Part shown: positions 18,572-61,661 of the stretch, one piece after another | Position numbering within the stretch: the first letter of the stretch is position 1 | Layout of the letters: each line of letters starts with the position of its first letter | Source of the DNA: Basidiobolus meristosporus CBS 931.73 | Lineage: Eukaryota; Basidiobolomycota; Basidiobolomycetes; Basidiobolales; Basidiobolaceae | Direction of reading: 5' to 3' | DNA: 64,000 nt | Assembly: GCA_002104905.1 (NCBI GenBank) | Contig: MCFE01000034.1 | Coordinates: 1 to 64,000, forward strand | Notes under the pieces: model-generated | Told to the model about the DNA's origin: nothing | The model's database searches: none | Seen by the model: only the letters and a program-made list of their open reading frames with translations | Program-made: the position numbers and the translations under genes

Positions 18572-18582
18572 CTGAGTGGGAG

Positions 18583-18914
18583 TGTTGTAAAAATTTGTAT
18601 TTCCACCTAAATATTCACCTAAGTTAGTCACTTAGATCATCACCTTCAAATCCTAGAGAATACTGACCAAGTTCCTTGTTGGGATTTACTTAGAATATTT
18701 ACCCAGAACATGAAAATTTGATAAGTTGCCCAAACAGCCCCAAACTTTGCACACATGTTCTTGGGACCTTCCTTAACCTACTCTACGTGTTTGTAATGCC
18801 AAGGCCATGTAAAAGTATAAATACTACTTTTACATTCAATAAATCATTAAGTGAAAACCACATAATCTACTTGTCCTCCCAATCACTTCCAATATCTCCA
18901 AGACTCTTACAACA
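18583..18914 (+). repeat. 3' LTR of the Copia element
   Basis: 332 bases from TGTTGTAAAAATT to GACTCTTACAACA with 8-base inverted ends. It contains a TATA-like AGTATAAATACTAC and an AATAAATCAT polyadenylation-like signal. The purine tract lies just before it. It serves here as the reference copy for the other LTRs in the window. Confidence 0.92.
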
Positions 18915-20243: not shown

Positions 20244-20400
20244 TCATATCCAATCACAAATAATGGATTGACCAAGGGATTTACACACCGTTCCGCTGGC
20301 GCAATGGTTCTGGATCAGACGTCCATTACTACAAACGAAGAAGATTCGCGAGGTACCTGAATCAAAGCAAGTGTATCGCCCGTTGACGCAATCCCCACCG
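20244..20400 (-). other. C-terminal CBM19-like module of giant protein A
   Basis: The last ~50 residues hold six cysteines in the order CVNGRYTC, FFVCSNGR, NHCASGTVC and IICDWI-stop. This is the closest match in the protein to CBM19 as found at the C-terminus of fungal chitinases. The same module closes the paralogue at 47503-47660 with few changes. Confidence 0.8.
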
Positions 20401-23400
20401 AAGGTGGGTTTCGCCAGTTTTTCGTCCCGTGTGACAGTGACTGTATGAATATTGTGCAGTGTGACTGTTTGGATGTTGGTTACCGAGACAACGACAGTAG
20501 CAGTAGCGCATTGGGGTGCGTATGTCGCTTCAGTGGAAGACAGAGGAGATTGAGAGCCCGTCACAGTTGGCTCGACAACGATAGTACGATCGATGACCGT
20601 GCGTATATTACCATTTCCATCGGTCACAGTAGTTACGTGCGCAAGCGTCTCAGCAGATGAGGCCAGAGGGGATTGAACACCAGCAGATTTGGAGATCTCA
20701 GTTGACTTCTCGTTGTGAGACGACTCCGTTGACTTGTGCTCTGACTCAGAGTGGCTAGGCTTGACAGATGAATTGACTTGGCTTGCAGTGTGAGCGTATA
20801 TGGTGGATGATGCAATGTGTCTCTCTCTATGAGCCTTTTCCGTTGTCTTATCGTGATCAGCAGATTTCGAGCGCTCAGTTGGCTTCTCGGAATGAGACAA
20901 CTCATTAGAACTGTAGGTAGGTATCAAATGCTCTGTAGGTTGTTCGGAGTGAGACGACTGCTTGGGTCTATGTTCTGACTCCGAGTGGGCAGGTTTCACC
21001 AAAGATCTAGTATGGCTTGCAATATGATGGTGCTCAGTGGACTTCTCAGATTGCGAGTGTTCCTTGTGTCTGCGCACTGACTCCGAGTGGGTAGGCTTCA
21101 CAGACGACTCAATATGGCTCTCACTGTGTACATGCTCAGTGGGCTTCTCTGAGTGTGCCGATTCATCGGAATTGATGTGAACTGACTTCGAAGTTGACTT
21201 GCCATGAGCTGCAGATTTGGAGTGCTTCCCGGGCTTATCAGAATGAGATGTTTCCTTGGGTCTGTGTTCCGAATCCGAGTAAGTATGTTTTGTTGTGGAG
21301 TCTACATGGGTTTGCGAGTGTGCATGTTCTGTAGGATTCTCAGAATGGGATGGTACTTCGGAACCAGTGTGGGCTGACTTCGAAATTGTCATTGCATGTT
21401 CGGCAGATTTCGAATGCCCTATGGACTTCTCAGAGTGGGACGACTGCCTGGGTCTGCGTTCTGACTCTGAGTGAGTAGGCTTCACAGATGGAGCAATGCG
21501 GCTTTCACTGTGAGCCTTTGCTGTTGTCATATCGTGGCCAGCAGATTTGGAGTGCTCAGTTGGCTTCGCAGAAGGAGACGATTCATTAGAACTGCGGGTA
21601 GATTTCAAATGCTCAGTAGACTGTTCGGGGTGAGACGAATCCTTTGGACTGTGCTCTGACTCTGACTGTGTAGGCTTCACAGATGAGTTAACATGACTCT
21701 CACTGTGGGTGTGTTCGGTGGGCTTTTCGGAATGCAATGATTTTTCGGAGTCGGTGTGGGTTGGCTTCGAAGTAGTCTTTTCGTGTTCCACAGATTTTGA
21801 GTGCTCAGTTGACTTCTCAAGGTGTGAAGACCTCTTAGGTCTCTGTTCTGACTCTGAGTGAGTAGGCTTCACCAAGGATTCGGTATGGGCAGAATTCAAT
21901 GAGTACCCAGTTTCGGTGTGTACTGCCTTCGAAATTGACTTGTTATTAGAAGAATTGGAGTGCTCACCGGGCTTCACGCGGTGAGACGACTCCTTGGGTT
22001 TCCCAGAGGATTCAACATGTTGTTCACTGTGTATGCTCTCAGTAGGCTTGTCTGACTCGTTGTGGACTGGCCTTGAGTGAGATGACTCCTTAGATCTACC
22101 TTCTGACTTCGGGTGTGTAGGCTTCATGATGGATTCAGAGTGGCTCTCACTATGAGCGTGTTCTGTGGGCATCTCAGTTTGCGATGACTTTTTGGACTTG
22201 CTGTGAGCTATCTTGGAGTGCTCAGTAGACTTCTCGGAGTGAGATGACTCCTTAGGTCTATATCCCGACTCCGAGCGAGTAGGATTCACAAATGATTCTA
22301 CATGGCTCTCACTGTGGACATGTTCCGTGGGCTTTTTAAGATGTGATGAGCTATCCGATTCAGTATGCACTGGCTCTGAAATAGACTTGATCGCAGCCGA
22401 TTTGGAGTGCTTGACTGACTTCTTTGAGTGAGATGATTCCATATAACTGTGCACTGGCTCCGAGTGTGTAGGCTTCACAGATGGGTTAGAGCGATATTCA
22501 CTGTGAACGTGTTCCGTGGGCTTCTCAGAATGCGACGGCTTATCGGATTCTGAGTGCTCTGGCTCCGATGATGTCTTATCATGATCAACAGCTTTCGAAT
22601 GCTCGCTGGGCTTCACAGAGTGAGACGACTTCTTTGCTTTGCGTTCTGGCTCTGTGGGAGTAGGTTGCACTGACGATTCAATGTGACTCTTACTGTGAAT
22701 CTTTTGTGTTGTATTATTCTGATCGGCGGATTTCGAGCGTTCAGTTGACTTCTCAGAATGCACGCTTCTACTGTCAACATGTTCTGTGGGCTTCACGGGC
22801 TCTAAGGAATTTTCGGATTTTGCGGATTTCGCAGACTGCGAGGATTTCATGAACTCAGAGTGGGCCGACTTCGAAGCAAAGTTATGACTTTCAGAATTGG
22901 AGTGCTTGGTGGGCTTCTCAGCATGGGACGACTCCCAATGACTGTACGCTGACTTTGAGCGGGTAGACTTCACTGATGAGTTAACATGGCTCTCACTGTG
23001 GACACTTTCGGTAGGCGTCCCGTAATGCGATGATATTTTGGACACAGTGTGGTCTGGCTCCGAAGTAGTTATCTCGTGTTCAGCAGATTTGGAGTGTTCA
23101 GTTGACTTCTCCGTATGAGTCGACTTTTCAAATCTGTGAGTAGATATCAAATGCTCAGAAGATTGTTCAGAGTGAGACGACTGCCTGGGTCTGCGTTCTG
23201 ACTCCGAGTGAGCAGGCTTCACAGACGATTCAATGCGGCTCCCACTGTGGACATGTTCAGTGGGCTTCTCTGAATGCGCTGATTTGTCCGAGTTGGTGTG
23301 AACTGACTTCGAAGGAGACTTGCCATGATCGGCAGATTTGGAGTGCTCGTTGTGCTGATCAGAATGAGATGATTCCCTGGGTACGTGCTCTGATTCTGAA

Positions 23401-26400
23401 TGAGTAGGCTTCACAGACGATTCTACATGGCTCTCACTGTGGACACGTTCAGTGGGCTTCTCTGAATGCGCTGATTTGATCGAATCGGTGTGGACTGTCT
23501 TCGAAGTTGGCATGTTATGATCAGCAGATTTGGAGTGCTCACTGGGCTCATCAGAATGCGATGTCTCTTTAGGTCTGTGCTCTGACTCCGAGTGGGTAGG
23601 CTTCGTGAATGAATCTACATGAGTTTGCGAGTGAATGTGCTCATTAGACTTATCAGAATGTGACGGTTCCTTGGGTTTGTGAACTGACTGCGAGTGAGTA
23701 GGCCTCACAGATGTGACAGCATGGCTTTGACTTTGAACGTGTTCGGTGGTCTCCTCAGAGTGAGATGAGTCTTCATGTTTGTGCACTGACTCCGAGTGAG
23801 TAGGCTTCACAGTCGAGTCAATATGGTTATCACTGTGGACATGTTCAGTGGGCTTCTCAGAATGAGCTGATTTTTCGAAATCGGTGTGAACTGACTTCAA
23901 AGTGGACTTGTATTGAGCAGCGGATTTGGAGTGCTCTCCGGACTTATCAGAATGAGATGTTTCCTTGCGTCTATGAACTGATTCCGAATGGGAAGGCTTC
24001 ACAGATGAGTCTACATGGGTTTTCGAGTGACTGTGTTCTGACTCCGAGCGGGTAGGCTTCACAGAGGAGTTAACGTGACTCTTACTGTAGACATGTTCTG
24101 TGGGCTTCTCAGAATGCGATAATTTATCGGACTCACTATGGGCTGACTTCGGTGTTGTTGTCTCGTGTTCAGCAGATGTAGAATAATCAGTGGACTTCTC
24201 CGAGTGAGACGGCTTCTTGGGTCCGTATTCTGACTCTGAACGAGTAGGCTTTGCTGTTGAGTCAACATGACTTTCACTGTGGGTATGTTCTGTTGGCTTC
24301 TCCGAATGTGATGATTTTACAGACTTAGTGTGGGCTGGCTTTAAAGTTGACATCTCGTGCGCAGCAGATTTCGTATGCTCACTGGAATTTTCGGAATGAG
24401 ACGACTTTACGGGTCTGCGTTCTGACTGTGTAGGCTTCACAGATGAGTGAACACGGCTCTCATGGTGGCTGCTTCCGGTAGGCTTCCCGGAATGCATTGA
24501 TGTTTCGGACACAGTGTGGGCCGGCTCCGAAGTAGTCATCTCGTGTTCAGTAGATTTCGAATGCTCAGTGGACTTCTCGGAGTAAGACGACTCCTTGGGA
24601 CCATGCTCTGACTCTGAGTGAGTAGTCTTCACAGATGATCCAATGTGAGTCTTACTGTGAGCCTTTTCCGTTGTCTTATCGTGATCAGCAGATTTCGAGC
24701 GCTCAGTTGGCTTCTCGGAATGAGACAACTCATTAGAACTGTAGGTAGGTATCAAATGCTCTGTAGGTTGTTCGGAGTGAGACGACTGCTTGGGTCTATG
24801 TTCTGACTCCGAGTGGGCAGGTTTCACCAAAGATCTAGTATGGCTTGCAATATGATGGTGCTCAGTGGACTTCTCAGATTGCGAGTGTTCCTTGTGTCTG
24901 CGCACTGACTCCGAGTGGGTAGGCTTCACAGACGACTCAATATGGCTCTCACTGTGTACATGCTCAGTGGGCTTCTCTGAGTGTGCCGATTCATCGGAAT
25001 TGATGTGAACTGACTTCGAAGTTGACTTGCCATGAGCTGCAGATTTGGAGTGCTTCCCGGGCTTATCAGAATGAGATGTTTCCTTGGGTCTGTGTTCCGA
25101 ATCCGAGTAAGTATGTTTTGTTGTGGAGTCTACATGGGTTTGCGAGTGTGCATGTTCTGTAGGATTCTCAGAATGGGATGGTACTTCGGAACCAGTGTGG
25201 GCTGACTTCGAAATTGTCATTGCATGTTCGGCAGATTTCGAATGCCCTATGGACTTCTCAGAGTGGGACGACTGCCTGGGTCTGCGTTCTGACTCTGAGT
25301 GAGTAGGCTTCACAGATGGAGCAATGCGGCTTTCACTGTGAGCCTTTGCTGTTGTCATATCGTGGCCAGCAGATTTGGAGTGCTCAGTTGGCTTCGCAGA
25401 AGGAGACGATTCATTAGAACTGCGGGTAGATTTCAAATGCTCAGTAGACTGTTCGGGGTGAGACGAATCCTTTGGACTGTGCTCTGACTCTGACTGTGTA
25501 GGCTTCACAGATGAGTTAACATGACTCTCACTGTGGGTGTGTTCGGTGGGCTTTTCGGAATGCAATGATTTTTCGGAGTCGGTGTGGGTTGGCTTCGAAG
25601 TAGTCTTTTCGTGTTCCACAGATTTTGAGTGCTCAGTTGACTTCTCAAGGTGCGAAGACTTTTGAGGTATATTGTGTGACTCGGATTGAGTAGGATTGCT
25701 CAAGGATTCAGTATGGCGGTCAATATGAGCGTGCTCAGTGGACTTCTTCGAGTGTGAGGATTCAGTGAGTCTGTGCTCAGACTTTGTGTGAATAGAATTC
25801 ACAGATGATTTGACATGGCTCTCACTGTGGACATGTTCAGTAGGCATTTCAGAATTAGCGGACTTGGGGAGAACCGACCTCGAAGTAAGCCTGCTATGAT
25901 CAGCAGATTTGGAGTGCTCCCTAGGCTTATCGGAATAAGATGATTCCCTTGGTCTGTGCTCTGACTCCGAATGAGTAGGCTTCATTGACGATTCTACATG
26001 GCTCTCACTGTGGACACGTTCTGTGGGCTTCTCTGAATGCACTGATTTGCTAGAATTGGTGTGAACTGACTTCGAAGTTGGCATATCATGATCGGTAGAT
26101 TTGGAGTGCTTGCTGAGCTTATGAGGAGATGATCCCCTGGTTCTGTGCACTGACTCCGAGTGAGTAGACTTCACAGATGAGTCTATATGTGTCTGTGAAT
26201 GAATGTGCTCAGTTGACTTCTCCGAGTGGGAGTGTACCTTGTGTCCGTGCTCCGACTCCGAATGAGTAGGCATCATTGATGATTCAATATGGCTATCACT
26301 GCGCACATGTTTAGCGGGCCTCGCTGAATGTGCTGATTTGTCATCACTGGTGTGAACTGACTTCGAAGTTGACTTGTCATGCTCAGCGGATTTGGAGTGT

Positions 26401-29400
26401 TCCCTGGGCCTGTCAGAACGAGATGAATCCTGGTGTCTGTGAACTGACTCCGAGTGGGAAGGCTTCATAGATGAGTCAATGTGGGTTTGCGAGTTTATAT
26501 GTTTTGACTCCGAGCGAGTAGGCTTCACAGAGGAGTTAACATGGCTCTCGCTGTGGAGACGTTCTGTGGGCTTCTCAGAATGAGCCGATTTATCGGAGGT
26601 GGTGTGAACCAATTTCGAAGTTGACTGGGCATTATCAGCAGATTTGGAGTGCTCACTGTGCTTATGAGAATGGGATGATTCCCTGGGCCTGTGCTCTGAT
26701 TCCGGGTGAGTAGACTTCGTGGATGAGTCTATATGGGTCAGTGAACGAATGTGCTCAGTGGACCTCTCCAAGTGAGAGTGTTCCTTGTGTCCGTGCTCTG
26801 ACTCCGAATGAGTAGGCTTCACGGACGATTCAATATGGCTATCACTGTGGACATATTTCGTGGGCTTCTCAGAATGTGCTGAGTTATCGGAAGTGGTGTG
26901 AGCCAATTTCGATGTTGACTGGACATGATCAGCAGATTCGGAGTGCACGCTGTGTTTATCAGAACGATATGAGTCCTTGTGTCTGTGTACTGACTCCGAG
27001 TGAGTAGGCTTCACAGATGAGTCCCAATGGGCTTGTGTGGGAGTACGCCTTGACTCCGAGTGGGTAGGCTTCGCTGAGGAGTCAACATGGCTCTCACTGC
27101 GCACATGTTTAGTGGGACTCGCTGGATGCGCTGATTTGCCATCACTGGTGTGAACTGACTTCGAAGTTGACTTGTCATGATCAGCGGATTTGGAGTGTTC
27201 CCTGGGCCTGTCAGAACGAGATGAATCCTGGTGTCTGTGAACTGACTCCGAGTGGGAAGGCTTCACAGATGGGCTAACACGGCTTTGCGAGTTTATGTGT
27301 TTTGACTCCGAGCGAGTAGGCTTCACAGAGGAGTTAACATGGCTCTCGCTGTGGAGACGTTCTGTGGGCTTCTCAGAATGAGCCGATTTATCGGAGGTGG
27401 TGTGAACCAATTTCGAAGTTGACTGGACATTATCAGCAGATTTGGAGTGCTCACTGTGCTTATGAGAATGGGATGATTCCCTGGGCCTGTGCTCTGACTC
27501 CGGGTGAGTAGACTTCGTGGATGAGTCTATATGGGTCAGTGAACGAATGTGCTCAGTGGACCTCTCCAAGTGAGAGTGTTCCTTGTGTCCATGTTTCGAC
27601 TCCGAATGAGTAGGCTCAGAATGCGCTGAGTTATCGGAAGTGGTGTGAACCAATATCGAAGCTGACTTGACATGATCAGCAGATTTCGAGTGTTCGTTGG
27701 GTTTATCAGAGTAAGATGATTCTCTGTGTCTGTGCTCTGATTCCGAATCAGTAGGCTTCACAGTCGATTTTACATGGCTCTCACTGTGAATATGTTGAGT
27801 AGGCTTCTCAGAATGCACTGATTTATGTGAATTGGTGTGAACTGACTTCGAAGTTGACTTGTCTCGGTCAGCAGATTTAGAGTGTTCGTTGGGTTTATGA
27901 GAAAGAGATGATTCCCAGTGTTTGTGCTCTGACTCCGAGTGGGTAGGCTTCACCGACGATTCACTGTGGCTCTCACTGCGCACATGTCCAGTAGGCTTCT
28001 CTGAATGCGCTGATCTGCTAGAATACGAATGAACTCCATTCGAAGTTGACTTTCTGTGATCAGCAGATTTTGAGTGCTCCCCGGGCTTATCTGAGTGCGA
28101 GTGTTCCTGATGTCTGTGCACTGACTCGGAGTGAATAGACTTCACAGATGTTTCAATATGGCTCTCACTGTGGATACGTTCAGTAGGCTTCTCTGAGTGC
28201 GCTGATTTGATAGAATTGGTGTGAACCAATTTCGATGTTGACCTGACGTGATCAGCAGATTTGGAGGTCTCGCTGTGCTTATCAGAGTGGGATAATTCCC
28301 TGTGTCTGGGCTCTGACGCCGAATGAGTAGGCTTCCCAGACGATGCAGTATGGCTATTACTGTGGACATGTTCAGTACGCTTCTCTGATTGCGCTGATTT
28401 GCCAGAATCGGTGTGGATCGGCTTGGAAGTTGTCTTTGTGTGTTCAGGTGATATCTCAGACTGAGACGACTCTATATGCCTTTGCTTTGACTCTGAGTGC
28501 CATGGTTCCTTGGACCTATGTTCTGACTCCGAGTGCGCAGATTTCACAGAGGATCCATCGTGGCTTACGCTGGGAATATGTTCTGTGGGCATCTTAGAGT
28601 GCGGCGGCTCCTTGGATTTGTGCTCCGCCTCCGAGTGTGTAGGCTTTACCAAGGATTCAGTATGGCTTGTATCATGAATGTGCTGAGTGGACTTCTCAGA
28701 GCGAGACGATTCCTTGGGTCTGTACTCTGACTCCGAGTGAGTACGCATCACAGATGAGTCAACATGGCTCTCACTATGGGCGCGTGCTGATGGCTTCTCC
28801 GAATGCCGTGACATTTCGGAGTTAGTGTGGGCTGATTTCGAAGTTATCATCTCGTGTTCCGCAGATTTTGAGTGCTCAGTTGACTTCTCAAGGTGTGAAG
28901 ACCACTTAGATCTGTGTTCCGACTCTGCGTGGGTAGGCTTTACAGACGATCCAATATGGCTATCGCTGTGGACATGTTTCGTGGGCCTCTCTGAATGCGC
29001 TGATTTGATAGAATTGGTGTGAACTGACTTCGAAGGAGACTTGCCATGATCGGCAGATTTGGAGTGCTCGTTGTGCTGATCAGAATGAGATGATTCCCTG
29101 GGTACGTGCTCTGATTCCGAATGAGTAGGCTTCACAGACGATTCTTCGTGGCTCTCACTGTGGACACGTTCAGTGGGCTTCTCTGAATGCGCTGATTTGA
29201 TCGAATCGGTGTGGACTGTCTTCGAAGTTGGGATGTCATGATCAGCAGATTTAGAGTGCCTGCTGGGCTTATCAGAGTGGGAAGATTCCCTGGGTCTGTG
29301 CTCTGACCCCGAATGAGTAGGCTTCATTGACGATTCTTCGTGGCTCTCACTGTGAATACGTTCAGTGGGCTTCTCTGAATGCGTCGCTGATTTGTCAGAA

Positions 29401-35400: not shown

Positions 35401-38400
35401 TGTAGAGATTGGGAGCGTCCTGTTGATTTGTTAGTATGTGACATTTCCTTAGATTGGCTTACCGACGCTGAGTGTTGAGCCTTCACAGATGATTTAACGT
35501 GGCTTTCAATGGGAGTTCGACCGGTAGGGTTTTCTGAAGGTGATAATTTCTGAGACTGACTGTGCACTGGCTTCGTAGTTGTCTTGTCATGGCCTTGAGA
35601 TTTATAGTGTTCAGTTGGCTTCTCGGAGTGGGACAACGATGAGTCAATATGGCTTTCATTATGAATATGCTCGGTGGACTTCTCAGAGTGCGATGATTTC
35701 TTGTGTCTGTGTTCTGACTCCGAAGGAGTATGTCTCACAGATGAGGCAACATTGCTTTCACTTTGAACATGTTCGGTTGTCTTCTTAGAGTGCGACGATT
35801 CCTTCGGTATGCGCTCTGACTCCGAGTGAGTAGGCTTCACAGACGATTCAATGTGGCTCTCACTGTGAATATGCTCCGTAGACTCAGTGTGGGCTGGCTT
35901 GGAAGTTGTCTTCTTATGTTCAGAAGATTGTGAATGCTCAGAATGAGATGATATCCCATGGCTGTGTTCTGACTTCAAATGAGTAGGTTTCACAGACGAG
36001 CCAAGGTGACTTTTACTGTGGGCACGTTCGGTGGGCTTCTCCGTATACGATGATTTCTGAGACTCCCTGTGGATCGGCTTGGAAGTTGTCTTTGTGTGTT
36101 CAGGTGATATCTCAGACTGAGACGACTCTATATGCCTTTGCTTTGACTCTGAGTGCCATGGTTCCTTGGACCTATGTTCTGACTCTGAGTGCGCAGATTT
36201 CACAGAGGATCCATCGTGGCTTACGCTGGGAATATGTTCTGTGGGCTTCTTAGAGTGCGGCGGCTCCTTGGATTTGTGCTCCGCCTCCGAGTGTGTAGGC
36301 TTTACCAAGGATTCAGTATGGCTTGTATCATGAATGTACTGAGTGGACTTCTCAGAGCGAGACGATTCCTTGGGTCTGTACTCTGACTCCGAGTGAGTAC
36401 GCATCACAGATGAGTCAACATGGCTCTCACTATGGGCGCGTGCTGATGGCTTCACCGAATGCCGTGACATTTCGGAGTTAGTGTGGGCTGATTTCGAAGT
36501 TATCATCTCGTGTTCCGCAGATTTTGAGTGCTCAGTTGACTTCTCAAGGTGTGAAGACCACTTAGATCTGTGTTCCGACTCTGCGTGGGTAGGCTTTACA
36601 GACGATCCAATATGGCTATCGCTGTGGACATGTTTCGTGGGCCTCTCTGAATGCGCTGATTTGATAGAATTGGTGTGGACTGACTTCGAAGGAGACTTGC
36701 CATGATCGGCAGATTTGGAGTGCTCGTTGTGCTGATCAGAATGAGATGATTCCCTGGGTACGTGCTCTGATTCCGAATGAGTAGGCTTCACAGACGATTC
36801 TTCGTGGCTCTCACTGTGAACACGTTCAGTGGGCTTCTCTGAATGCGCTGATTTGCCAGAATCGGTGTGGACTGTCTTCGAAGTTGGTATGTTATGATCA
36901 GCAGATTTAGAGTGCCTGCTGGGCTTATCAGAGTGGGAAGATTCCCTGTGTCTGTGCTCTGACCCCGAATGAGTAGGCTTCATTGACGATTCTTCGTGGC
37001 TCTCACTGTGAATACGTTCAGTGGGCTTCTCTGAATGCGCCGCTGATTTGTCAGAATCGGTGTGGACTGTCTTCGAAGTTGGCATGTTATGATTAGCAGA
37101 TTTAGAGTGCCTGCTGTGCTTATCAGAGTGAGATGATTCCCTGGGTCTGTGCACTGACTCCGAATGAGTAGGCTTTACTGATGAGTTAATGTTGCTCTTA
37201 CTGTGAATGTGCTCCGTTGGCTTCTCAGAATGCGATGATTTGTAGGACTCGGTGTGAACTGGCTTCGAAGTAGACTTACCGTGGTCGTCAGACTTGGTGT
37301 GCTCACTGGGCTTCTCAGAGTGTGACTTCGAAGACGCCTTATCGTGATCAGGAGATTTAGTGTGCTCGGGGGTCTTCTCAGTGTCAGAAGACTCCATAGA
37401 TCTGTGCCCGGACTCCGAGTAAGTATGCTTCACAGATGAGGTAGCGTGGCTTTCACTTTGAACGTGTTCAGGGGTCTTCCTAGAATGCAACGATGTTACG
37501 GACTTGGTGCGAGCTGGCTGCGAAGCTGTCATTTCGTGATCAGCAGATTTCGAGTGCGCATTGGACTTTTCATAGTGAGAGGTTTCTTTGGACCTGTATT
37601 CTGACTCCGAGTGTGAAGGCTTCACAGATGAGACAACATGGTTTTCGCTTTGAACGTGTTCTGTTGGCTTCGCAGGCTGCGATGATATTCCATGCTCAGT
37701 GTGTACTGGCTTCGAGGTTACTTTATGGTGGGCAGCAGACTTTGAGTGCTCAGTGGGCTTGTCCAGATGCGAAGACTCCTTAGATCTGTGCTCTGACTCC
37801 GAATGAATAGGCTTCACAGATGAGTCAACGTGGCTTTCAGTACGAGTGTGGCCGGTAGGCTTCTCGGATGACAACAATTTACTTGACTCAGGATGCGTTG
37901 TCTTCAGCGACGACTTATCGTGATGTTGGGACTGAGGGTGCTTGGTTGGCACATCAGATTGAGACGGCTCTTTGTGTCTATGTATCGACCCCGAGTGAGT
38001 AGGCTTGAGAGGAGAATCAACGTGATTTTCACTGCGAATGTGGTTTATGGATTTTTCAGATGGTGATACCGTTCCGGACGCCTTGTGGACTGGCTTCGAC
38101 GATGGGCTATCGTGATCTGAAGTTTCGTGGCGCCTAGTGGGCTTTTCAGAGTGAGACGACTGCTTCACCGATGATTCAGTATGACTTTCATTATGAATGT
38201 ACTTGCTGGGCTTCTCAGAGTGCGACGATTCTCTGGGTCTGTGACCTGATTCTGTGTGAGTAGGCTTCGCAGTTGACTCCATGTGGCTTTCACTGTGAGC
38301 GTGTTCGGTGGGATGCGCTGATTTGACGGACTCCGCGTGGACTGACTTCGAAGTTGCTTTATTGTGATCAGCAGATTTGGATTGCCCTGCGGGCATCCGA

Positions 38401-41400
38401 GGTGAGGAACAAGACTTTGACTCGCTATGAACCGGCTTCGAAGAAGGCCTGTCATGACCCTGCGGCTCCGAGTGCTTAGTTGGCTTTCCTGAGTGAGAGT
38501 ATTCCTTGGATCTGTGTACCGATTCCGAGTGACTAGGCTTCGCAGTTGACTCCGTGTGGCTGTGGCTGTGAGCGTGTTCGGTGGGATGTGCTGATTTGAC
38601 GGACTCCGCGTGAACTGACTTCGAAGTTGCTTTATTGTGATCAGCAGATTTGGATTGCCCTGCGGGCATCCGAGGTGAGGAACACGACTTTGACTCGCTA
38701 TGAACCGGCTTCGAAGAAGGCCTGTCATGACCCTGTGGCTCCGAGTGCTTGGTGGGCCTTTCTGAGTGAGAGTATTCCTTGGATCTGTGTACCGATTCCG
38801 AGTGACTAGACTTCGCAGTTGACCCCATATGGCTTTCACTGTTAGCGTGTTCGGTGGGATGTGCTGATTTGACGGACTCCGTGTGAACTGACTGCGAAGT
38901 TGCTTTATTGTGATCAGCAGATTTGGATTGCCCTGCGGGCATCCGAGGTGAGGAACACGACTTTGACTCGCTATGAACTGGCTTCGAAGAAGGCCTGTCA
39001 TGACCCTGTGGCTCCGAGTGCTTGGTGGGCTTTTCTGAGTGAGAGTATTCCTTGGATCTGTGTACCGATTCCGAGTGACTAGGCTTCGCAGTTGACTCCG
39101 TGTGGCTTTCACTGTTAGCGTGTTCGGTGGGATGCGCTGATTTGGCGGACTCCGCGTGGACTGACTTCGAAGTTGCTTTATTGTGATCAGCAGATTTGGA
39201 TTGCCCTGCGGGCATCCGAGGTGAGGAACACGACTTTGACTCGCTATGAACTGGCTTCGAAGAAGGCTTGTCATGACCCTGTGGCTCCGAGTGCTTAGTT
39301 GGCTTTTCTGAGTGAGAGTATTCCTTGGATCTGTGTACCGATTCCGAGTGACTAGGCTTCGCAGTTGACTCCATGTGGCTGTGGCTGTGGCTGTGAGCGT
39401 GTTCGGTGGTATGTGCTGATTTGACGGGCTCCGTGTGAACTGACTTCGAAGTTGCTTTATTGTGATCAGCAGATTTGGATTGCCCTGCGGGCATCCGAGG
39501 TGAGGAACACGACTTTGACTCGCTATGAACTGGCTTCGAAGAAGGCTTGTCGTGACCCTGTGGCTCCGAGTGCTTGGTGGGCCTTTCTGAGTGAGAGTAT
39601 TCCTTGGATCTGTGTACCGATTCCGAGTGACTAGGCTTCGCAGTTGACTCCATGTGGCTGTGGCTGTGGCTGTGAGCTTGTTCGGTGGGATGTGCTGATT
39701 TGACGGACTCCGTGTGGACTGACTTCGAAGTTGCTTTATTGTGATCAGCAGATTTGGGTTGCCCTGCGGGCATCCGAGGTGAGGAACAAGACTTTGACTC
39801 GCTATGAACCGGCTTCAAAGAAGGCTTGTCATGACCCTGTGGCTCCGAGTGCTTGGTGGGCTTTTCTGAGTGAGAGTATTCCTTGGATCTGTGTACCGGT
39901 TCCGAGTGACTAGACTTCGCAGTTGACTCCATATGGCTTTCACTGTTAGCGTGTTCGGTGGGATGCGCTGATTTGACGGACTCCGTGTGGACTGACTTCG
40001 AAGTTGCTTTATTGTGATCAACAGATTTGGATTGCCCTGCGGGCATCCGAGGTGAGGAACACGACTTTGACTCGCTATGAACCGGCTTCGAAGAAGGCCT
40101 GTCATGACCCTGTGGCTCCGAGTGCTTGGTGGGCCTTTCTGAGTGAGAGTATTCCTTGGATCTGTGTACCGATTCCGAGTGACTAGGCTTCGCAGTTGAC
40201 TCCATGTGGCTGTGGCTGTGGCTGTGAGCGTGTTCGGTGGGATGTGCTGATTTGACGGACTCCGTGTGAACTGACTGCGAAGTTGCTTTATTGTGATCAG
40301 CAGATTTGGATTGCCCTGCGGGCATCCGAGGTGAGGAACAAGACTTTGACTCGCTATGAACTGGCTTCGAAGAAGGCCTGTCATGACCCTGTGGCTCCGA
40401 GTGCTTAGTTGGCTTTTCTGAGTGAGAGTATTCCTTGGATCTGTGTACTGATTCTGTGTGAATAGGCTTCTTAAATGAGTCAATATGGGTATTACTGTGA
40501 GTTCGATCGTGGGGCATCTCTGATCGAGATGATTTGGTGGTTGGTGTATATGAAGGTTTTGAGGTAATTGGTGCTTCTGAAGCAGACATGACTGATTTCC
40601 CTTTCGGTGGAGCTCCAGCACAAGCAGGGCCGTTCGTAGTCATTAGGCAGACTTGACTCCCACTACAACTGTATTTTTTTATGACCCCGTTAATGCAAGC
40701 ATTAACAACTCCTGTTCTACGTTCGTCTTCGCATGTGGCTGCTTGACACTCTGGCTTCTTAGGAATCTGTGGCGTAAACTTGCTTTCATGAGGGACAGAT
40801 TTACTTACAGTTAATGTTCCTGGTGGAGAAGTAGGAGTGTTAGATCTATCGCTACTTCTTACAAGAGTGGAAGTAGTGGAGTCTGATTTATCGCTACGTC
40901 TTTTAAGGGTAGAAGTAGCCGAGTTAGACTTATCGCTGCTTCTTTTAAGGGTAGAAGTAACCGAGCTAGATTTATCACTACTTGTCGGGATTGAACTAAC
41001 TGTGTCGGTTTTATGGCTACCTCTTTTAAGTGAAGTAGATGTGCCAGGTTGATCGCCGCTTCCCATCAAGGTAGAAGAATGTGTACTTGTTGTACTAACG
41101 GTTGAATGTGAGGTTTGGAGGTCAGCAATTTGCAAAATGCACTCGATTCCCTCCCACTGACGGCTCCAGCTTACCCAATCTATGCATATCGCTGTTCCTT
41201 GGCAGTTGAACTGAACCATCTCGCCATTGATGCATTTCTTGAATTGTCTACTCTGACCTGGGTCAACACATTGATATTCGGCCGGGCAGTTGTTCTTTTT
41301 TGAGACAGTAACCACAGCTGTTGTTTCGGCCACCATATGAGTAACCACCTTGGTTTGGAGTACAACGCTTTCCACGATATCTAAGGTTGATGATGCAGGT

Positions 41401-42329
41401 TCCACGGAAGGCGAATTTACAATGGGATTCTCGACTTTCATCTCAACACATCCTTGCTTCTCTTTACATATCGTTCCGGTGGGGCACATCGTCGTTTGCC
41501 ATTGACCATTTATACATAACGCAAGTGCGTCTCTACCAGAACATGAGAACTCGAATTCTTTCGGACATGGGCCACTCAGTGGTTTGTAGTTTCCTTCGGA
41601 ACCGGGAAGTATACACCCTAGGTTCTCTTTACATATTTGATTTCCGCTACATGTCTCGATTGTCGGTTCGCCAAAACTCGGGCAGTATTGCATTGTGTGT
41701 TTGTCTATGCAAGACCAAGGTACATCTGGATTGCATTTATTTTGAGTGTTAGGTGCGTGAATGGGTTTGCACCCTGGCTGACCATTGCTCATTTGGCAGT
41801 TATACCCGCTTGAACAGGCTACTTCGGCGACATTCCCCTTGTAGCAAGTTAGATATCGATCCTTGCTTAGGCATCTGCCTTTGTAAGTGGACGGGCTGCA
41901 TCCCATCGTTACGACTGCCTGGGATGTCTCCGCGGACTGGTGGACAGAAAGGGAGGTAACAGCAATCATGCCAGTTGTAAGTGAGGAGGCTTTCATTGGT
42001 AATTCGCATTGGGCCCGACCGGCACCGTCAGAAACGCAAACATACTGTTGTCTGACTGGTTTGTATTGGGTTGGGCAAGCGTATACCACCCAATAGCCGT
42101 TCATGCACATTTTGTACTGGTGATTGTCGTTGGGCATGCAATAGACCTGGCCTTCGTTACATCGCTGGGCTAATGTCGTAACGGCGATTCCTTGAGATAG
42201 CGTCGAGGTCAGCCCGTGAACGGTATTGATCGAACCTGGTTGAAATGTTGCTGTTTCTGGTAGTAGGGGAGACCCCCAAACAGGTGCTAACAGAGCAAAG
42301 TAAGCTGCCAACACAGCGTTTACCTTCAT
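20244..42329 (-). CDS. Giant secreted repeat protein with CBM19-like modules at both ends (7,361 residues)
   Basis: A single uninterrupted frame of 22,086 bases with no intron. A signal peptide (MKVNAVLAAYFALLAPVWG, about 1-20) is followed by six modules of exactly six cysteines each: 57-108, 144-187, 199-239, 255-294, 348-397 and 528-570. A Ser/Thr linker with about four 15-residue SSDKSNSATSTLKR-type repeats lies between modules five and six. Residues from about 580 to 7,200 form a low-complexity stalk of Ser, His, Lys, Glu, Pro and Thr. It starts with eight copies of a ~93-residue unit and continues with 64-residue units such as EKPTERVHSESH...SDKPSRHSKSADH. A short Thr/Val-rich segment then leads to a seventh six-cysteine module (CVNGRYTC...CASGTVC...CDWI) at the very end. 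The cysteine pattern and C..NG.W....C..GT.C signature match chitin-binding CBM19. No GPI signal or transmembrane helix is seen. I infer a wall or extracellular fibre bound to chitin at both ends. Confident as a gene; function inferred. Confidence 0.88.
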   Translation of the reverse strand: MKVNAVLAAYFALLAPVWGSPLLPETATFQPGSINTVHGLTSTLSQGIAVTTLAQRCNEGQVYCMPNDNHQYKMCMNGYWVVYACPTQYKPVRQQYVCVSDGAGRAQCELPMKASSLTTGMIAVTSLSVHQSAETSQAVVTMGCSPSTYKGRCLSKDRYLTCYKGNVAEVACSSGYNCQMSNGQPGCKPIHAPNTQNKCNPDVPWSCIDKHTMQYCPSFGEPTIETCSGNQICKENLGCILPGSEGNYKPLSGPCPKEFEFSCSGRDALALCINGQWQTTMCPTGTICKEKQGCVEMKVENPIVNSPSVEPASSTLDIVESVVLQTKVVTHMVAETTAVVTVSKKNNCPAEYQCVDPGQSRQFKKCINGEMVQFNCQGTAICIDWVSWSRQWEGIECILQIADLQTSHSTVSTTSTHSSTLMGSGDQPGTSTSLKRGSHKTDTVSSIPTSSDKSSSVTSTLKRSSDKSNSATSTLKRRSDKSDSTTSTLVRSSDRSNTPTSPPGTLTVSKSVPHESKFTPQIPKKPECQAATCEDERRTGVVNACINGVIKKYSCSGSQVCLMTTNGPACAGAPPKGKSVMSASEAPITSKPSYTPTTKSSRSEMPHDRTHSNTHIDSFKKPIHTESVHRSKEYSHSEKPTKHSEPQGHDRPSSKPVHSESKSCSSPRMPAGQSKSADHNKATSQSVHTESVKSAHPTEHAHSHSHSHMESTAKPSHSESVHRSKEYSHSERPTKHSEPQGHDRPSSKPVHSESKSCSSPRMPAGQSKSVDHNKATSKSVHTESVKSAHPTEHANSESHMESTAKSSHSEPVHRSKEYSHSEKPTKHSEPQGHDKPSLKPVHSESKSCSSPRMPAGQPKSADHNKATSKSVHTESVKSAHPTEQAHSHSHSHMESTAKPSHSESVHRSKEYSHSERPTKHSEPQGHDKPSSKPVHSESKSCSSPRMPAGQSKSADHNKATSKSVHTEPVKSAHTTEHAHSHSHSHMESTAKPSHSESVHRSKEYSHSEKPTKHSEPQGHDKPSSKPVHSESKSCSSPRMPAGQSKSADHNKATSKSVHAESAKSAHPTEHANSESHTESTAKPSHSESVHRSKEYSHSEKPTKHSEPQGHDRPSSKPVHSESKSCSSPRMPAGQSKSADHNKATSQSVHTESVKSAHPTEHANSESHMGSTAKSSHSESVHRSKEYSHSERPTKHSEPQGHDRPSSKPVHSESKSCSSPRMPAGQSKSADHNKATSKSVHAESVKSAHPTEHAHSHSHTESTAKPSHSESVHRSKEYSHSGKPTKHSEPQGHDRPSSKPVHSESKSCSSPRMPAGQSKSADHNKATSKSVHAESVKSAHPTEHAHSESHMESTAKPTHTESGHRPRESSHSEKPSKYIHNESHTESSVKQSSHSEKPTRRHETSDHDSPSSKPVHKASGTVSPSEKSINHIRSENHVDSPLKPTHSGSIHRHKEPSQSDVPTKHPQSQHHDKSSLKTTHPESSKLLSSEKPTGHTRTESHVDSSVKPIHSESEHRSKESSHLDKPTEHSKSAAHHKVTSKPVHTEHGISSQPAKPTEHVQSENHVVSSVKPSHSESEYRSKETSHYEKSNAHSKSADHEMTASQPARTKSVTSLHSRKTPEHVQSESHATSSVKHTYSESGHRSMESSDTEKTPEHTKSPDHDKASSKSHSEKPSEHTKSDDHGKSTSKPVHTESYKSSHSEKPTEHIHSKSNINSSVKPTHSESVHRPRESSHSDKHSRHSKSANHNMPTSKTVHTDSDKSAAHSEKPTERIHSESHEESSMKPTHSGSEHRHRESSHSDKPSRHSKSADHNIPTSKTVHTDSGKSAHSEKPTERVHSESHEESSVKPTHSESEHVPRESSHSDQHNEHSKSADHGKSPSKSVHTNSIKSAHSERPTKHVHSDSHIGSSVKPTHAESEHRSKWSSHLEKSTEHSKSAEHEMITSKSAHTNSEMSRHSVKPSARAHSESHVDSSVMRTHSESEYRPKESSRSEKSTQYIHDTSHTESLVKPTHSEAEHKSKEPPHSKKPTEHIPSVSHDGSSVKSAHSESEHRSKEPWHSESKQRHIESSQSEISPEHTKTTSKPIHRESQKSSYTEKPTERAHSKSHLGSSVKPTHLKSEHSHGISSHSEHSQSSEHKKTTSKPAHTESTEHIHSESHIESSVKPTHSESERIPKESSHSKKTTEHVQSESNVASSVRHTPSESEHRHKKSSHSEKSTEHIHNESHIDSSLSHSEKPTEHYKSQGHDKTTTKPVHSQSQKLSPSENPTGRTPIESHVKSSVKAQHSASVSQSKEMSHTNKSTGRSQSLHHDSSTSKSVHSESENADKTAKPTEHTHSGSHISSFVKPTHSESEHKSKELSHSEKSTEHSKSAEHVKTTSKPDYTKSEKSSHTEKPTEHIHTESHINSSVRPSYSNSDHRPKEPSHYENSTKYSKSAEHEKTTSKPAHTGSDKSSHSEKPTERAHSDSHVDSSVKPIHSESEHRSKESSHLDKPTEHSKSAAHHKVTSKPVHTEPEKSSRSKKTTENVRSQSHVDSTVKASHTESEHRPRESSHYEKPTDHSKSAKHEMPTLRPDRTKSEKSTHSAKPTERAHSDRHPESSVRSKHSKSEQGHRESSYSEKPTKHIKSPGSSDSQKSIEPLKSTYHGESTSMSMHTRPEKSYKSAKHEKITSKPAHTESDKSPHSEKSTGRAHSYSHIYSSVKPIHSESEHRSKKSSHLEKSTEHSKSADHHKATSKPTYSESQKPSRSEESTEHAHSESHISSFVKSTHSESEHRARGSSHSNNPSDHSKSAADDRSTPKSVPTNSDNSAHSAKPTEHVHSDSNIESSVKSTHSESEHRHMESSHSDKPSRHSKSADHGMPTSKLVHTTSDNSAHSEPTHSESEHGRKEHSHLERSTEHIRSLTHIDSSTKSTHPESEHRPRESSHSHKHSEHSKSADNVQSTSKLVHTTSDKSAHSETPTERLHSESHVNSSVKSTRSESKHINSQTHIDSSMKPSHSESVHRHQDSSRSDRPREHSKSADHDKSTSKSVHTSDGKSAHPASPTKHVRSESHVDSSAKPTHSESRHTPTQAHWDSSVKPTHSESVHRHKDSYHSDKHSVHSESADHVQSTSKLAHTTSDNSAHSEKPTKYVHSDSHIESSVKPTHSESEHRHKEHSHSERSTEHVHSQTHMDSSMKPTHSESEHRARGSSHSNNPSDHSKSAADDRSTPKSVPTNSDNSAHSAKPTEHVHGDSHIESSVKSTHSESEHRHMESSHSDKPSRHSKSADHGMPTSKSVHTDSDKSAAHSEKPTERVHSESHEESSMKPTHSESVRRHKEHSQSDKPSRHYKSADHDMPTSNTVHTNSGKSAQSEKPTERAHSESHVESSVEPTHSESEHRHVESSHSGKHSEHYKSTDHSMPTSRSVHTDSNKPAHSEKPTERVRSNSHNASLVKSTHSESEPRHRESSHSEKPSKHPKSADHNTTTSKSVRTYSSRSARSEKPTEHVHSESHEESSMKPTHVDSEHRPRESSHSDKNGEHSKSADHRKSTSKSVHTDSDKSAAHSEKPTERIHSDSHEESSMKPTHSGSEHVPRESSHSDKPSRHSKSADHDMPTSKSVHTDSDKSAAHSEKPTERVHSESHEESSMKPTHSESVRRHKESSHSDKNGEHSKSADHNIPTSKLVHTNSGKSAQSEKPTERAHSESHVESSVEPTHSESEHRHMESSHSDKNGEHSKSADHGKSTSKSVHTDSNKPAHSEKPTERVRSNSHIASSVKSTHSESEPRHRESSHSDKPSRHSKSADHDMPTSKSVHTDSGKSAQSEKPTERAHSESHVESSVEPTHSESEHRHVESSHSGKHSEHYKSTDHSMPTSRSVHTDSNKPAHSEKPTERVRSNSHNASFVKSTHSESEPRHRESSHSDKPSKHPKSVDHNTTTSKSVRTYSSRSARSEKPTEHVHSESHEESSMKPTHVDSEHRPRESSHSDKNGEHSKSADHRKSTSKSVHTDSDKSAAHSEKPTERIHSESHEESSMKPTYSGSEHRPRESSHSDKPSRHSKSADHDMPTSKSVHTDSDKSAAHSEKPTKRVHSESHEESSMKPTHSESVRRHKESSHSDKNGEHSKSADHNIPTSKSVHTNSGKSAQSENPTERAHSESHVESSVEPTHSESEHRHVESSHSDKNGEHSKSADHGKSTSKSIHTDSNKPAHSEKPTERVRSNSHIASSVKSTHSESEPRHRESSHSDKPSKHPKSADHNTTTSKSVRTYSSSSARSEKPTEHVHSESHVESSMKPTNVDSEHRPRESFHSDEHSEHSKSADHGKSTSKSVHTDSDKSATHSEKPTERIHSESHEESSMKPTHSGSEHRPRESSHSDKPSRHSKSADHDIPTSKTVHTDSIKSAHSEKPTERVHSESHEESSVKPTHSESEHVPRESSHSDQHNEHSKSADHGKSPSKSVHTNSIKSAHSERPTKHVHSDSHIGSSVKPTHAESEHRSKWSSHLEKSTEHSKSAEHEMITSKSAHTNSEMSRHSEKPSARAHSESHVDSSVMRTHSESEYRPKESSRSEKSTQHIHDTSHTESLVKPTHSEAEHKSKEPPHSKMPTEHIPSVSHDGSSVKSAHSESEHRSKEPWHSESKQRHIESSQSEISPEHTKTTSKPIHTDSGKSAQSEKRTEHVHSNSHTASSGKPTHSASEPRHRELSHSDKHSETSKSADHVRSTSKLVHTNSIKSAHSEKPTERIHSESHIETSVKSIHSESVHRHQEHSHSDKPGEHSKSADHRKSTSNGVHSYSSRSAHSEKPTGHVRSESHSESSVKPTHSESEHKHWESSLSHKPNEHSKSADRDKSTSKSVHTNSHKSVHSEKPTQHIHSESHVKSTVKPTDSESEHRHRESSYSDKPNEHSKSADHVKSASILVHTTSDNSAHSEPTHSESKHGHKEHSHLERSTEHIRSLTHIDSSTKSTHPESEHRPRESSHSHKHSEHSKSADNVQSTSKLVHTTSDKSAHSEKPTERLHSESHVNSSVKPTRSESKHINSQSRVSPSVKPSHSESVHRHQDSSRSDRPREHSKSADHDKSTSKSVHTSDGKSAHPASPTKHVRSESHVDSSAKPTHSESRRTPTQAHWDSSVKPTHSESVHRHKDSYRSDKHSVHSESADHVQSTSKLAHTTSDNSAHSEKPTKYVHSDSHIESSVKPTHSESEHGHKEHSHLERSTEHIRSLTHIDSSTKSTHPESEHRPRESSHSHKHSEHSKSADNAQSTSKLVHTTSDKSAHSEKPTERLHSESHVNSSVKPTRSESKHINSQTHIDSSMKPSHSESVHRHQDSSRSDRPREHSKSAEHDKSTSKSVHTSDDKSAHSARPAKHVRSDSHIESSMMPTHSESEHGHKVHSHSEKSTEHIHSQTHIDSSVKSTHSESVHRTRGSSPHKLSKHSKSTDHDMPTSKSVHTNSSKSVHSEKPTERVHSESHVESSMKPTHSESEHRPRESSYSDKPREHSKSADHSRLTSRSVLPKSANSEMPTEHVHSESHVKSSVNSIHTKSEHRLTESSHSKKSTEHAHIDRHTESLSNPTQSESHNIPQKSSHLEKSTEHSKSVEHEKTTSKPTHTDSEKSLHSEKPTEHTHSESHVNSSVKPTQSESEHSPKDSSHPEQSTEHLKSTRSSNESSPSAKPTEHSKSAGHDMTTAKAHSESRIAPSVKPTHSESERRPRQSSHSEKSIGHSKSAEHAMTISKSAHTGSEVPSHSENPTEHAHSQTHVDSTTKHTYSDSEHRPKETSHSDKPGKHSKSAAHGKSTSKSVHINSDESAHSEKPTEHVHSESHIESSVKPTHSESVRRHKEHSQSEKSTEHHHIASHTRSLVKPAHSESEHRPKQSSHSEQPTEHLIPTYSSNELSHSEKPTERSKSADHDKTTEKAHSKTHIGSSVKTTHSESEHGPKESSYSEKSTEHSKSTEHEMTTSEPAHTVSETSMHSGKPTGSSHHESRVHSSVKPTQSERRPVKSSHSENSSEHTKSAAHEMSTLKPAHTKSVKSSHSEKPTEHTHSESHVDSTAKPTRSESEYGPKKPSHSEKSTDYSTSAEHETTTPKSAHSESDKLSHSEKPTEHVYSKSHVNSSVKPTRSESEHSHSKTHVDSSVKPSHSESVHRRKETSHSDKSGEHSKSAAQYKSTLKSVHTDFEKSAHSEKPTEHVHSDNHIDSTVKPTHSESVHKHEDSSHSEETTEHVQSQSHAVTSVRPTHSQSVHKPKEPSHSDKSNEHIHSQTHVDSFTKPTHSESEHRPKETSHSDEPSEHSKSADHNMPTSKTVHTDSIKSAHSEKPTERVHSESHVESSVKPTHSESEHVPRESSHSDQHNEHSKSADHGKSPSKSVHTNSDKSAHSEKPTEHVHSGSRIESSVKPAHSESERRPRQSSHSEQSSEHLISTHRFEKSTHTEKSTEHSKSAEHEITTSEPDHTVSKISSHYGTPTESVHSESHVNSSVKSTRSKSAYSHWESSHAEKPTKHSNSESHNFASKSAHSEFMKSSQSAKSAKSENSLEPVKPTEHVDSRSVHSEKSTERSKSADQNNTTQKIHSKSHIESSVQPTPTEPERKAKKSSHSVKPSEHSKAVDHDKTSSEPEHSESDKPSHSEKPTEHVHSEYRSNPSVKPTHSEPVHSYMESSHSKKSVKHSKSAAIKSISEPVHTESDSSSHLKKPTEHVHSESHVESFVNPTRSESGYRPKESSHSEKSTEHSKIAHSKSKKSSQTEMPTEHAHSESHSESIMKPTHPKSEGRSKESSHSRPVHNESDKPTESIHSEQHVESSGKPKESSHRVKPGEHSNSSNNKSISKAVHTETGYSLNSAHTESLVKPTHSESEQRPKRSSHLEKSTEHSKSVEHEKTTSKPTHTDSEKSLHSEKPTEHTHSESHVNSSVKPTQSESEHSPKDSSHPEQSTEHLKSTRSSNESSPSAKPTEHSKSAGHDMTTAKAHSESRIAPSVKPTHSESERRPRQSSHSEKSIGHSKSAEHAMTISKSAHTGSEVPSHSENPTEHAHSQTHVDSTTKHTYSDSEHRPKETSHSDKPGKHSKSAAHGKSTSKSVHINSDESAHSEKPTEHVHSESHIESSVKPTHSESVRRHKEHSQSEKSTEHHHIASHTRSLVKPAHSESEHRPKQSSHSEQPTEHLIPTYSSNELSHSEKPTERSKSADHDKTTEKAHRERHIASSTIYAHTASQVNSSVKPSHSESEHKSTESSHNEKSTEISKSAGVQSPLASSAETLAHVTTVTDGNGNIRTVIDRTIVVEPTVTGSQSPLSSTEATYAPQCATATVVVSVTNIQTVTLHNIHTVTVTRDEKLAKPTFGGDCVNGRYTCFDSGTSRIFFVCSNGRLIQNHCASGTVCKSLGQSIICDWI
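20832..21824 (-). repeat. ~1-kb block duplicated inside giant gene A, copy 1
   Basis: This block recurs at 24660-25652, an offset of 3,828 bases, with no difference seen in the parts compared. Similarity drops sharply just after CTTCTCAAGGTG. Because ordinary 64-residue units differ from one another at many positions, this is a recent internal duplication or gene conversion. Confidence 0.85.
24660..25652 (-). repeat. ~1-kb block duplicated inside giant gene A, copy 2
   Basis: This is the partner of 20832-21824 and keeps the reading frame (3,828 is divisible by three). Confidence 0.85.
26770..27620 (-). repeat. Internal duplicated block, offset 6,081, copy 1
   Basis: The sequence from about 26770 to 27620 recurs at about 32850-33700 with only scattered changes. 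Exact anchors are CACGGACGATTCAATATGG at 26820 and 32901, and the TTTGCGAGTTTATGTG string at 27284 and 33365. A third, partial copy of the last part lies at about 26460-26960 (offset 798). Confidence 0.75.
28415..29165 (-). repeat. Internal duplicated block, offset 7,656, copy 1
   Basis: About 750 bases recur at 36071-36821 with only a handful of substitutions, anchored by GGATCGGCTTGGAAGTTG at 28415 and 36071. The offset is exactly twice 3,828 and keeps the frame. Confidence 0.8.
29290..32560 (-). repeat. Densest array of near-identical 64-residue (about 192-base) units
   Basis: Runs of units of the SHSDKPSRHSKSADHDMPTSKSVHTDSDKSAAHSEKPTERVHSESH type recur as blocks. Equivalent points lie at 29327, 30293 and 31643 (offsets 966 and 1,350, about 5 and 7 units). 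In one unit counted by hand (64 residues, minus strand ending near 29945), 16 are Ser and 8 are His, and none is aromatic or Cys. Confidence 0.8.
32850..33700 (-). repeat. Internal duplicated block, offset 6,081, copy 2
   Basis: This is the partner of 26770-27620. Confidence 0.75.
36071..36821 (-). repeat. Internal duplicated block, offset 7,656, copy 2
   Basis: This is the partner of 28415-29165. Confidence 0.8.
38215..40480 (-). repeat. Eight tandem ~93-residue units, one cysteine each
   Basis: The unit (273-279 bases, once 552 for two) reads SHSESVHRSKEYSHSE, then KHSEPQGHD, KPVHSESKSCSSPRMPAG, QSKSADHNKATSKSVH, and a variable run of SH or ES dipeptides before MESTAKP. Length differs only in that SH run. 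Each unit carries one Cys in SKSCSSPRM, whereas the 64-residue region beyond it has essentially none. This array lies directly after the N-terminal module block, and units are far more alike than the 64-residue ones. Confidence 0.88.
40615..42160 (-). other. N-terminal block of six six-cysteine CBM19-like modules in protein A
   Basis: The modules lie at residues 57-108, 144-187, 199-239, 255-294, 348-397 and 528-570. Spacing is C-x5-8-C-x8-11-C-x9-10-C-x5-12-C-x5-14-C. Aromatic or tryptophan residues at the expected face are visible in several (NGYWVVYAC, NGQWQTTMC). Modules 1 to 6 are collinear with those of the second giant gene. Confidence 0.8.
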
Positions 42330-42369: not shown

Positions 42370-42377
42370 TATTTATA
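42370..42377 (-). promoter_or_regulatory. TATA box of giant gene A
   Basis: TATAAATA lies 41 bases upstream of the ATG at 42329. The paralogue has the same octamer 40 bases upstream of its MKV start codon. Confidence 0.75.
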
Positions 42378-42408: not shown

Positions 42409-42451
42409 AGTTGTCATCAGCACCTATTATTCCCAACCTCTCGATTAATCT
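42409..42451 (-). promoter_or_regulatory. Conserved upstream elements of giant gene A
   Basis: On the plus strand, AGTTGTCATCAGC (42409-42421) and CTCGATTAATCT (42440-42451) recur before the second giant gene at the same distances from the TATA box (32 and 63 bases). The sequence between them is much less alike. They are candidate binding sites of a shared regulator, or simply residual paralogy. Confidence 0.5.
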
Positions 42452-61650: not shown

Positions 61651-61661
61651 AATTGGTTCCC

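Follow-up and report, generated by a model that had tools for sequence, protein, structure and literature searches.

What might a fungus gain from a protein of 7,361 residues that carries cysteine-rich modules at both ends of a repetitive stalk? The question is raised by a 64,000-nucleotide stretch of contig MCFE01000034.1 from Basidiobolus meristosporus CBS 931.73 (referred to here as the window), in which positions 20244–42329 of the minus strand form one ATG-to-stop frame without an internal stop, as a first-pass annotation of this DNA had claimed. The remaining five frames across the same positions hold 183–653 stops each, and the longest open run of the giant's frame in 200 base shuffles was 357 codons. 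A hydrophobic N-terminus (residues 1–19, 42273–42329), judged by eye, fits the signal peptide proposed earlier, and Pfam scans of the giant's pieces reported no enzyme domain above its cut-off (BKACE and SRP14, both on the N-terminus, scored under theirs and were rejected). We consider it probable that the giant is secreted and serves as a very long chitin tether, predicted to be anchored by its C-terminus and to carry a His-rich polyampholyte stalk. Features of the giant and of its neighbour described below are all on the minus strand.

The cysteines of the giant cluster, as had been claimed, in six N-terminal six-Cys modules, namely module 1 (residues 57–108, 42006–42161), module 2 (residues 144–187, 41769–41900), module 3 (residues 199–239, 41613–41735), module 4 (residues 255–294, 41448–41567), module 5 (residues 348–397, 41139–41288) and module 6 (residues 528–570, 40620–40748), and in one C-terminal six-Cys module (residues 7314–7358; 20247–20390 up to its end C-D-W-I-stop), for which a small, CBM14-like beta fold is predicted. 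When the modules were scanned alone against Pfam (cut-offs 20.1 bits for CBM_19, PF03427, and 22.1 bits for CBM14, PF01607), the CBM_19 match that the first-pass annotation expected of all seven was found above the cut-off for module 4 (26.6 bits) and not for the other six. The C-terminal module (CBM_14 17.4, CBM_19 15.7 bits) and module 1 (15.1 and 13.5 bits) stayed under both cut-offs, module 5 was reported with CBM_14 at 12.4 bits and not with CBM_19, and modules 2, 3 and 6 returned no family; the 17.4 bits of the C-terminal module are the best CBM14 score, and no module reached that cut-off. Among N-terminal pieces from seven family members, L015 (24.4 bits) and L019 (21.3) exceeded the CBM_19 cut-off, the giant's own 600-aa piece (20.0), L016 (19.7) and L013 (12.4) did not, and L011 and L017 were unreported. 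Six fetched proteins ending in C-D-W-x behaved similarly, with L027 (24.9), L031 (25.4) and L035 (21.5) passing, L038 (18.0) failing, and L025 and L059 unreported.

A profile–profile comparison took as its reference eight CBM19-type modules found in this genome. L041 supplied four of them, L037 two, and L033 and L044 a single one apiece; L033 and L044 scored 15.2 and 19.9 bits for CBM_19 in one scan and above the cut-off in another. Against this set the C-terminal module reached a probability of 98.7%, module 1 95.3%, module 5 94.8%, module 4 93.9% and module 2 92.3%, and modules 6 and 3 reached 34.4% and 4.2%, the profiles of modules 3 and 4 being built from three and four sequences, respectively. 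The highest value in 20 column shuffles per module with the Cys kept was 14.4, a control that covers the comparison with the CBM19 set and not the linkages between modules. Those linkages were 87.5–92.5% for module 3 with module 4, 94.4–95.0% for module 6 with the C-terminal module and 92.3–93.1% for module 6 with module 2, the other pairs ranging from <1 to 96.7. The CBM19-like character claimed earlier for all seven is thus backed directly, by kinship to the CBM19-type modules of this genome, for five, whereas modules 3 and 6 are joined by linkage only, the former by way of module 4 and the latter by way of module 2 and the C-terminal module. By these comparisons the giant's modules are of the CBM19/CBM14 kind. 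A module profile run against sequences of the Protein Data Bank gave seven matches to E 10, the best being a cysteine-rich eggshell membrane protein (1.4e-05), which we rejected as a match of pattern only since it consists of short stretches of about 20 residues; the six further matches had E 0.62 or worse, and a profile of the N-termini gave a sole match at E 1.8.

Judged by their residues, the two ends are not equivalent, since the C-terminal module closes with Cys-Asp-Trp-x-stop and this terminal Asp-Trp is absent from all six N-terminal modules. Human chitotriosidase likewise ends in a Trp essential to it, and in relatives that have been studied, chitin binding depends on residues resembling the terminal Asp-Trp; by analogy, the terminal Asp-Trp suggests chitin binding by the C-terminal module. 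The pattern used to search for such modules allowed at most four residues past the last Cys, which makes the short tail, though not the letters D-W, a product of construction, and the profile comparison demanded C-D-W at the C-terminal end. L055 (ending CDWQYTS), L044 (CDWPSSGNSSE) and L033 (CD) lie outside the pattern. By eye, no GPI-type C-terminal hydrophobic signal is visible in the giant, which ends ...SIICDWI-stop inside the Cys module.

Between the ends runs a Ser/His/Lys/Glu-rich stalk of 6,670 aa (residues 591–7260, 20550–40559), close to the 6,600 residues first estimated. It contains 1661 Ser, 911 His, 710 Glu, 657 Lys and 408 Pro (Ser+Thr 2,186), with only eight Trp and eight Cys, and its basic and acidic residues nearly balance (K+R 943 vs D+E 953); the charge would turn strongly positive once the His were protonated. 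The eight cysteines stand singly between residues 664 and 1307 at a spacing of 91–93 residues, on a tandem array of 273-bp (91-aa) repeats in 8.2 copies (38202–40470); the strongest period of the stalk as a whole is 192 bp (64 aa). The stalk has grown by duplication, as seen in 95 exact repeats of at least 20 residues and in a recent 1,002-bp internal duplication (24657–25658 and 20829–21830) whose copies share 334 identical residues and differ at 2 of 1,002 bases. All 22 tandem-repeat rows, some of which describe the same arrays, have periods divisible by three. The repeats were compared without gaps at five thresholds of identity, which left 40 to 8 pairs, some of them overlapping; the ratio of nonsynonymous to synonymous change (dN/dS) was 0.46–0.61 in the true frame vs 0.77–1.08 in the two other frames, a contrast that is clear at thresholds of 0.60–0.70 and narrower among the most similar pairs; the stalk of the neighbouring paralogue described below gave 0.34–0.47 vs 0.85–1.04 (29 to 4 pairs). 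Stalk repeats of this locus therefore show a purifying signal on the protein sequence in the coding frame. From its chain length, such a stalk could span at least a micrometre if extended and glycosylated.

These features fit together in the tether that we prefer. After secretion, the C-terminal CBM14/19-type module would dock onto chitin by its terminal Asp-Trp, the His/Ser/Thr/Pro-rich stalk, with its acidic and basic residues about equal, would serve as a long flexible spacer, probably O-mannosylated, and the six-module N-terminal cluster would hold a second chitin chain, a wall glycan or a glycoprotein. In this way the giant would link parts of the fungal wall with one another or fasten the wall to chitin surfaces, for instance insect cuticle. 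The bridging role suggested earlier for modules at both ends thus stands as a layout and as the likeliest function, but not as a bridge with two like ends. Since Basidiobolus capilloconidia have adhesive tips that stick to insects, these tips are a candidate, and the most attractive, place of action, which makes the giants candidates for the capilloconidia adhesive. A bolder version, which we put forward as speculation and hold to be doubtful, would make the giants the glue of these spores. They would act as His-rich cables of micrometre length, responsive to pH or to metals, with a C-terminal Trp chitin lock and diverged CBM19-type modules gripping insect cuticle; the fungus would have multiplied the module into dozens of secreted proteins, large and small, as a lineage-specific extracellular matrix that is partly cut from public annotation.

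Peritrophins, which are smaller than the giant, carry CBM14-type modules. The giant's layout has a smaller counterpart in one such protein of the insect gut lining and a partial one in a fungal adhesin, and the giant most likely works like the linker proposed for SfPER and like BAD-1. SfPER is a CMCMC peritrophin, an order that we read as modules at both ends, and in the accessible portion of its description it is proposed to link chitin fibrils. Insect intestinal mucins have two to five chitin-binding modules, some with mucin domains (available text of PMC4753498). Like these proteins, which as far as the accessible accounts go are secreted and alternate Cys-rich chitin-binding modules with mucin-like stretches, the giant has a module–stretch–module layout; it differs in falling short of the CBM14 cut-off and in a His/Lys/Glu-rich stalk, the insect mucin domains being Thr/Pro/Ser-rich (same text). 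Peritrophins are animal proteins and the giant is fungal, and the likeness of the whole layout stands without any sign of common descent. The GPI-anchored yeast adhesins (Flo, Als) combine a signal peptide, N-terminal ligand modules and long Ser/Thr-rich repeats. Unlike them, the giant has as its C-terminus a Cys module, with a Trp adjoining the last residue. With CBM19 (PF03427) it shares the Cys pattern, the profile kinship and module 4, and it departs from that family in having seven modules, six of them under the cut-off or unmatched, and no enzyme domain in the pieces scanned.

BAD-1 of Blastomyces dermatitidis, which is released and then rebinds wall chitin, supplies the alternative that survives best. 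As described in the part of the literature open to us, it is a fungal secreted protein with a C-terminal Cys-rich chitin-binding anchor, no GPI signal and a repeat stalk that makes up more than 80% of the protein. On this plan the giant would be a surface adhesin whose C-terminal module is a mere non-covalent wall anchor, while its stalk or its N-terminal modules have a ligand different from chitin (glycans of a host or of bacteria, or glycoproteins). The confinement of the Asp-Trp end to the C-terminal module agrees with this, and so do the lower scores of the N-terminal modules against the CBM19 set. However, module 4 passes CBM_19, an NG-x-W motif is retained in modules 1 and 4, and the relative L017 has a Trp two places past the last Cys of its module 1. 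Module 4 and the NG-x-W motifs leave room for chitin binding at the N-terminus. We regard a purely BAD-1-like adhesin as possible but rather unlikely. The same accounts give BAD-1 an EGF-like anchor, Trp- and Cys-containing repeats, a mass of 120 kDa and no N-terminal module cluster, whereas the giant's stalk is poor in both Trp and Cys, its C-terminal module is of the CBM14/19 kind, and Pfam scans of C-terminal pieces returned no EGF family. We file the giant with neither the peritrophins nor BAD-1. The earlier statement that no protein of this layout had been described is weakened by both partial precedents, although neither matches the whole. The giant's family is not described in the titles, abstract openings and passages covered on CBM19, fungal adhesins and Basidiobolus, from a collection without most subscription journals.

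A second alternative is a structural polymer of the wall or slime, in which His-rich polyampholyte chains condense or crosslink around chitin (through pH, metal ions or the stalk Cys) and form a matrix instead of an adhesin. The His content, the balanced charge and the regular Cys spacing of the stalk would suit such a material, and in squid beak chitin-binding proteins are combined with separate histidine-rich proteins (PMC9716703, in the text available). The other giants speak against it: in the four that were profiled, a His-rich first part of the stalk is followed by a VT-rich second part with mostly 2–5% His, unlike the present giant, which is His-rich almost all along. His-richness throughout is thus no family rule. 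Nor did the four other giants that were read show the regular Cys array, and we consider the polymer improbable.

The tether that we favour is also not a lone protein, and the first-pass annotation had recorded neither the minus strand nor the eight evenly spaced stalk cysteines nor a tandem paralogue at 47503–59100. The paralogue follows one frame broken by a single in-frame TGA in module 4. Its larger piece (47503–58221, 3,572 aa) comprises modules 5 and 6, a stalk and a C-terminal module, and its N-terminal piece (58228–59100, 290 aa) is closed by the TGA. In the public model P0003 (454 aa), splicing skips the TGA and removes most of module 4. Since the stalk keeps its purifying signal, the TGA may be recent, an assembly error, or spanned by a real intron as in the model. 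On the larger piece, Pfam matches to tRNA_edit (30.9 bits, cut-off 25.5) and CARM1 (24.1, cut-off 22) were rejected as low-complexity matches, because they fall in the VT-rich repeats and no single stretch passes alone.

A search of the genome's contigs with the N-terminal modules gave 21 matches, which resolve into nine multi-module loci, the giant included: two each on C580 (the window's contig) and C911, and one each on C489, C447, C713, C708 and C437. The nine include alleles or overlaps, since the N-termini on C713 and C708 are nearly identical. Another five places match through a single stretch. A C-terminal module follows downstream on the same strand in seven of the nine (both loci of C580 and of C911, and those of C489, C447 and C713, the intervening stretch being read in part for C447 and C713); the C708 frame reaches the contig end, and no C-terminal module was listed on C437. 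Read from stop to stop, the frames measure 5,162 and 4,592 aa on C911 and 5,240 aa on C489. The giant's last 139 residues found 153 matching places, with 150 of 215 candidates scored and allelic copies included. The C-terminal module itself is covered by at least 76 places on 41 contigs (five of 81 rows were dropped as not covering it), 17 of them in frames of at least 2,000 aa (16 frames), and three of the 76 contain a stop codon (C911:23997, C805:53326 and C918:21566). On these counts the giant is a member of a large family within this genome.

A profile of seven N-termini, with 8,000 candidates scored, matched three proteins, all from Basidiobolus meristosporus CBS 931.73, and the public models of three relatives measure 607, 529 and 454 aa. 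None of 3,160 candidates of similar length matched residues 1–600 at E<=0.01, and none of 154 matched the C-terminal region of a 559-aa relative; this last search missed its own protein, so that absence outside the family's own genome is weakly tested. In C. obscurus, of a related genus, CBM19 counts 11 genes (PMC12387763, in the text available).

The giant contains no intron-like GT-AG stretch ahead of its end and reads straight into the C-terminal module; its intron-like patterns (calls here rest on sequence pattern) number 11 vs a mean of 5.3 in 100 codon shuffles (range 1–13), a count above the mean that gives hidden introns no clear support. The claim of an intronless gene holds for the giant and some relatives, but not for the whole family. 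In six loci (L049–L054), a stretch of 53–62 nt with a GTAAG start, CTGAC inside and an AG end lies between the stalk and the C-terminal exon; L052 equals L053 in sequence, L050 and L051 are nearly identical, and the borders of L054 are uncertain. Such a border before the C-terminal exon supports the stalk and the C-terminal module belonging to one protein. By eye, L016 and L019 shift frame at a conserved GTAATT...AG stretch past the sixth module. The last alternative, a decayed or misannotated locus in which codon-like repeats happen to leave a long frame open and the cell produces no single giant, could draw on the short public models, the neighbour's TGA and the empty search among similar-length proteins, but we hold it to be highly improbable given the purifying signal strongest in the true frame, 7,361 codons without a stop, the layout shared among paralogues and the intron-like borders.

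The family is large and concrete, belongs to an early-diverging fungus and has a candidate binding residue at its extreme C-terminus. If the tether is correct, fungi too equip a stalk with chitin-binding modules on either end, as seen in an insect protein of the gut lining, and at extreme length. Outside the phylum of the model yeasts, the adhesion molecules of the other six fungal phyla are only sparsely described (PMC6023273, as far as its text was available).

At the giant's own locus, a putative TATA box (TATAAATA, 42370–42377) lies 48 nt upstream of the ATG, and two candidate AATAAA signals (20159–20164 and 20179–20184) stand less than 90 nt past the stop. Each of the eight starts compared, the giant's and the neighbour's included, has a TATA-like site ahead of it, which is TATAAATA in five of them; the distance to the ATG was measured for two starts. 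In the neighbour and in one C911 gene we count from the second in-frame ATG, because the first stands right at the TATA box. Farther upstream than the giant's TATA box, a block at 42412–42451 (AGATTAATCGAG ... TGATGACA) is common to the giant, its neighbour and both C911 giants, and may reflect shared regulation.

Elsewhere in the genome, giant frames of 2,890 aa (plus) and 5,240 aa (minus) meet tail to tail at C489 76641–78335, both ending in a C-terminal module. On C865 (about 19.1–35 kb), a frame of 5,331 aa contains several modules of CBM19 type (L032, L037) and closes with a C-terminal module (L059). Small frames with module matches cluster on C387 (about 9.8–22.9 kb), C824, C805, C391 and C375, and the fetched small frames L031 and L035 have an extra Cys-containing N-terminal part without a Pfam match. 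L020, L021, L022 and L024 (C1214, C1106, C515) are small proteins in which one Cys module is followed by a shared domain YMNDFL..GYFWDVA; L020 and L022, the two that were scanned, match no Pfam family.

Within the window, scans for Rfam families (at the gathering score) and for tRNA were empty. The window that holds the giants also has a chitin synthase of the Chitin_synth_1 kind in one open frame at 3578–6121 (minus). Pieces of a Copia-type retroelement, with gag_pre-integrase, integrase core and reverse transcriptase, lie at about 14537–18700 (plus), and fragments resembling such pieces at about 60741–61700 (plus).
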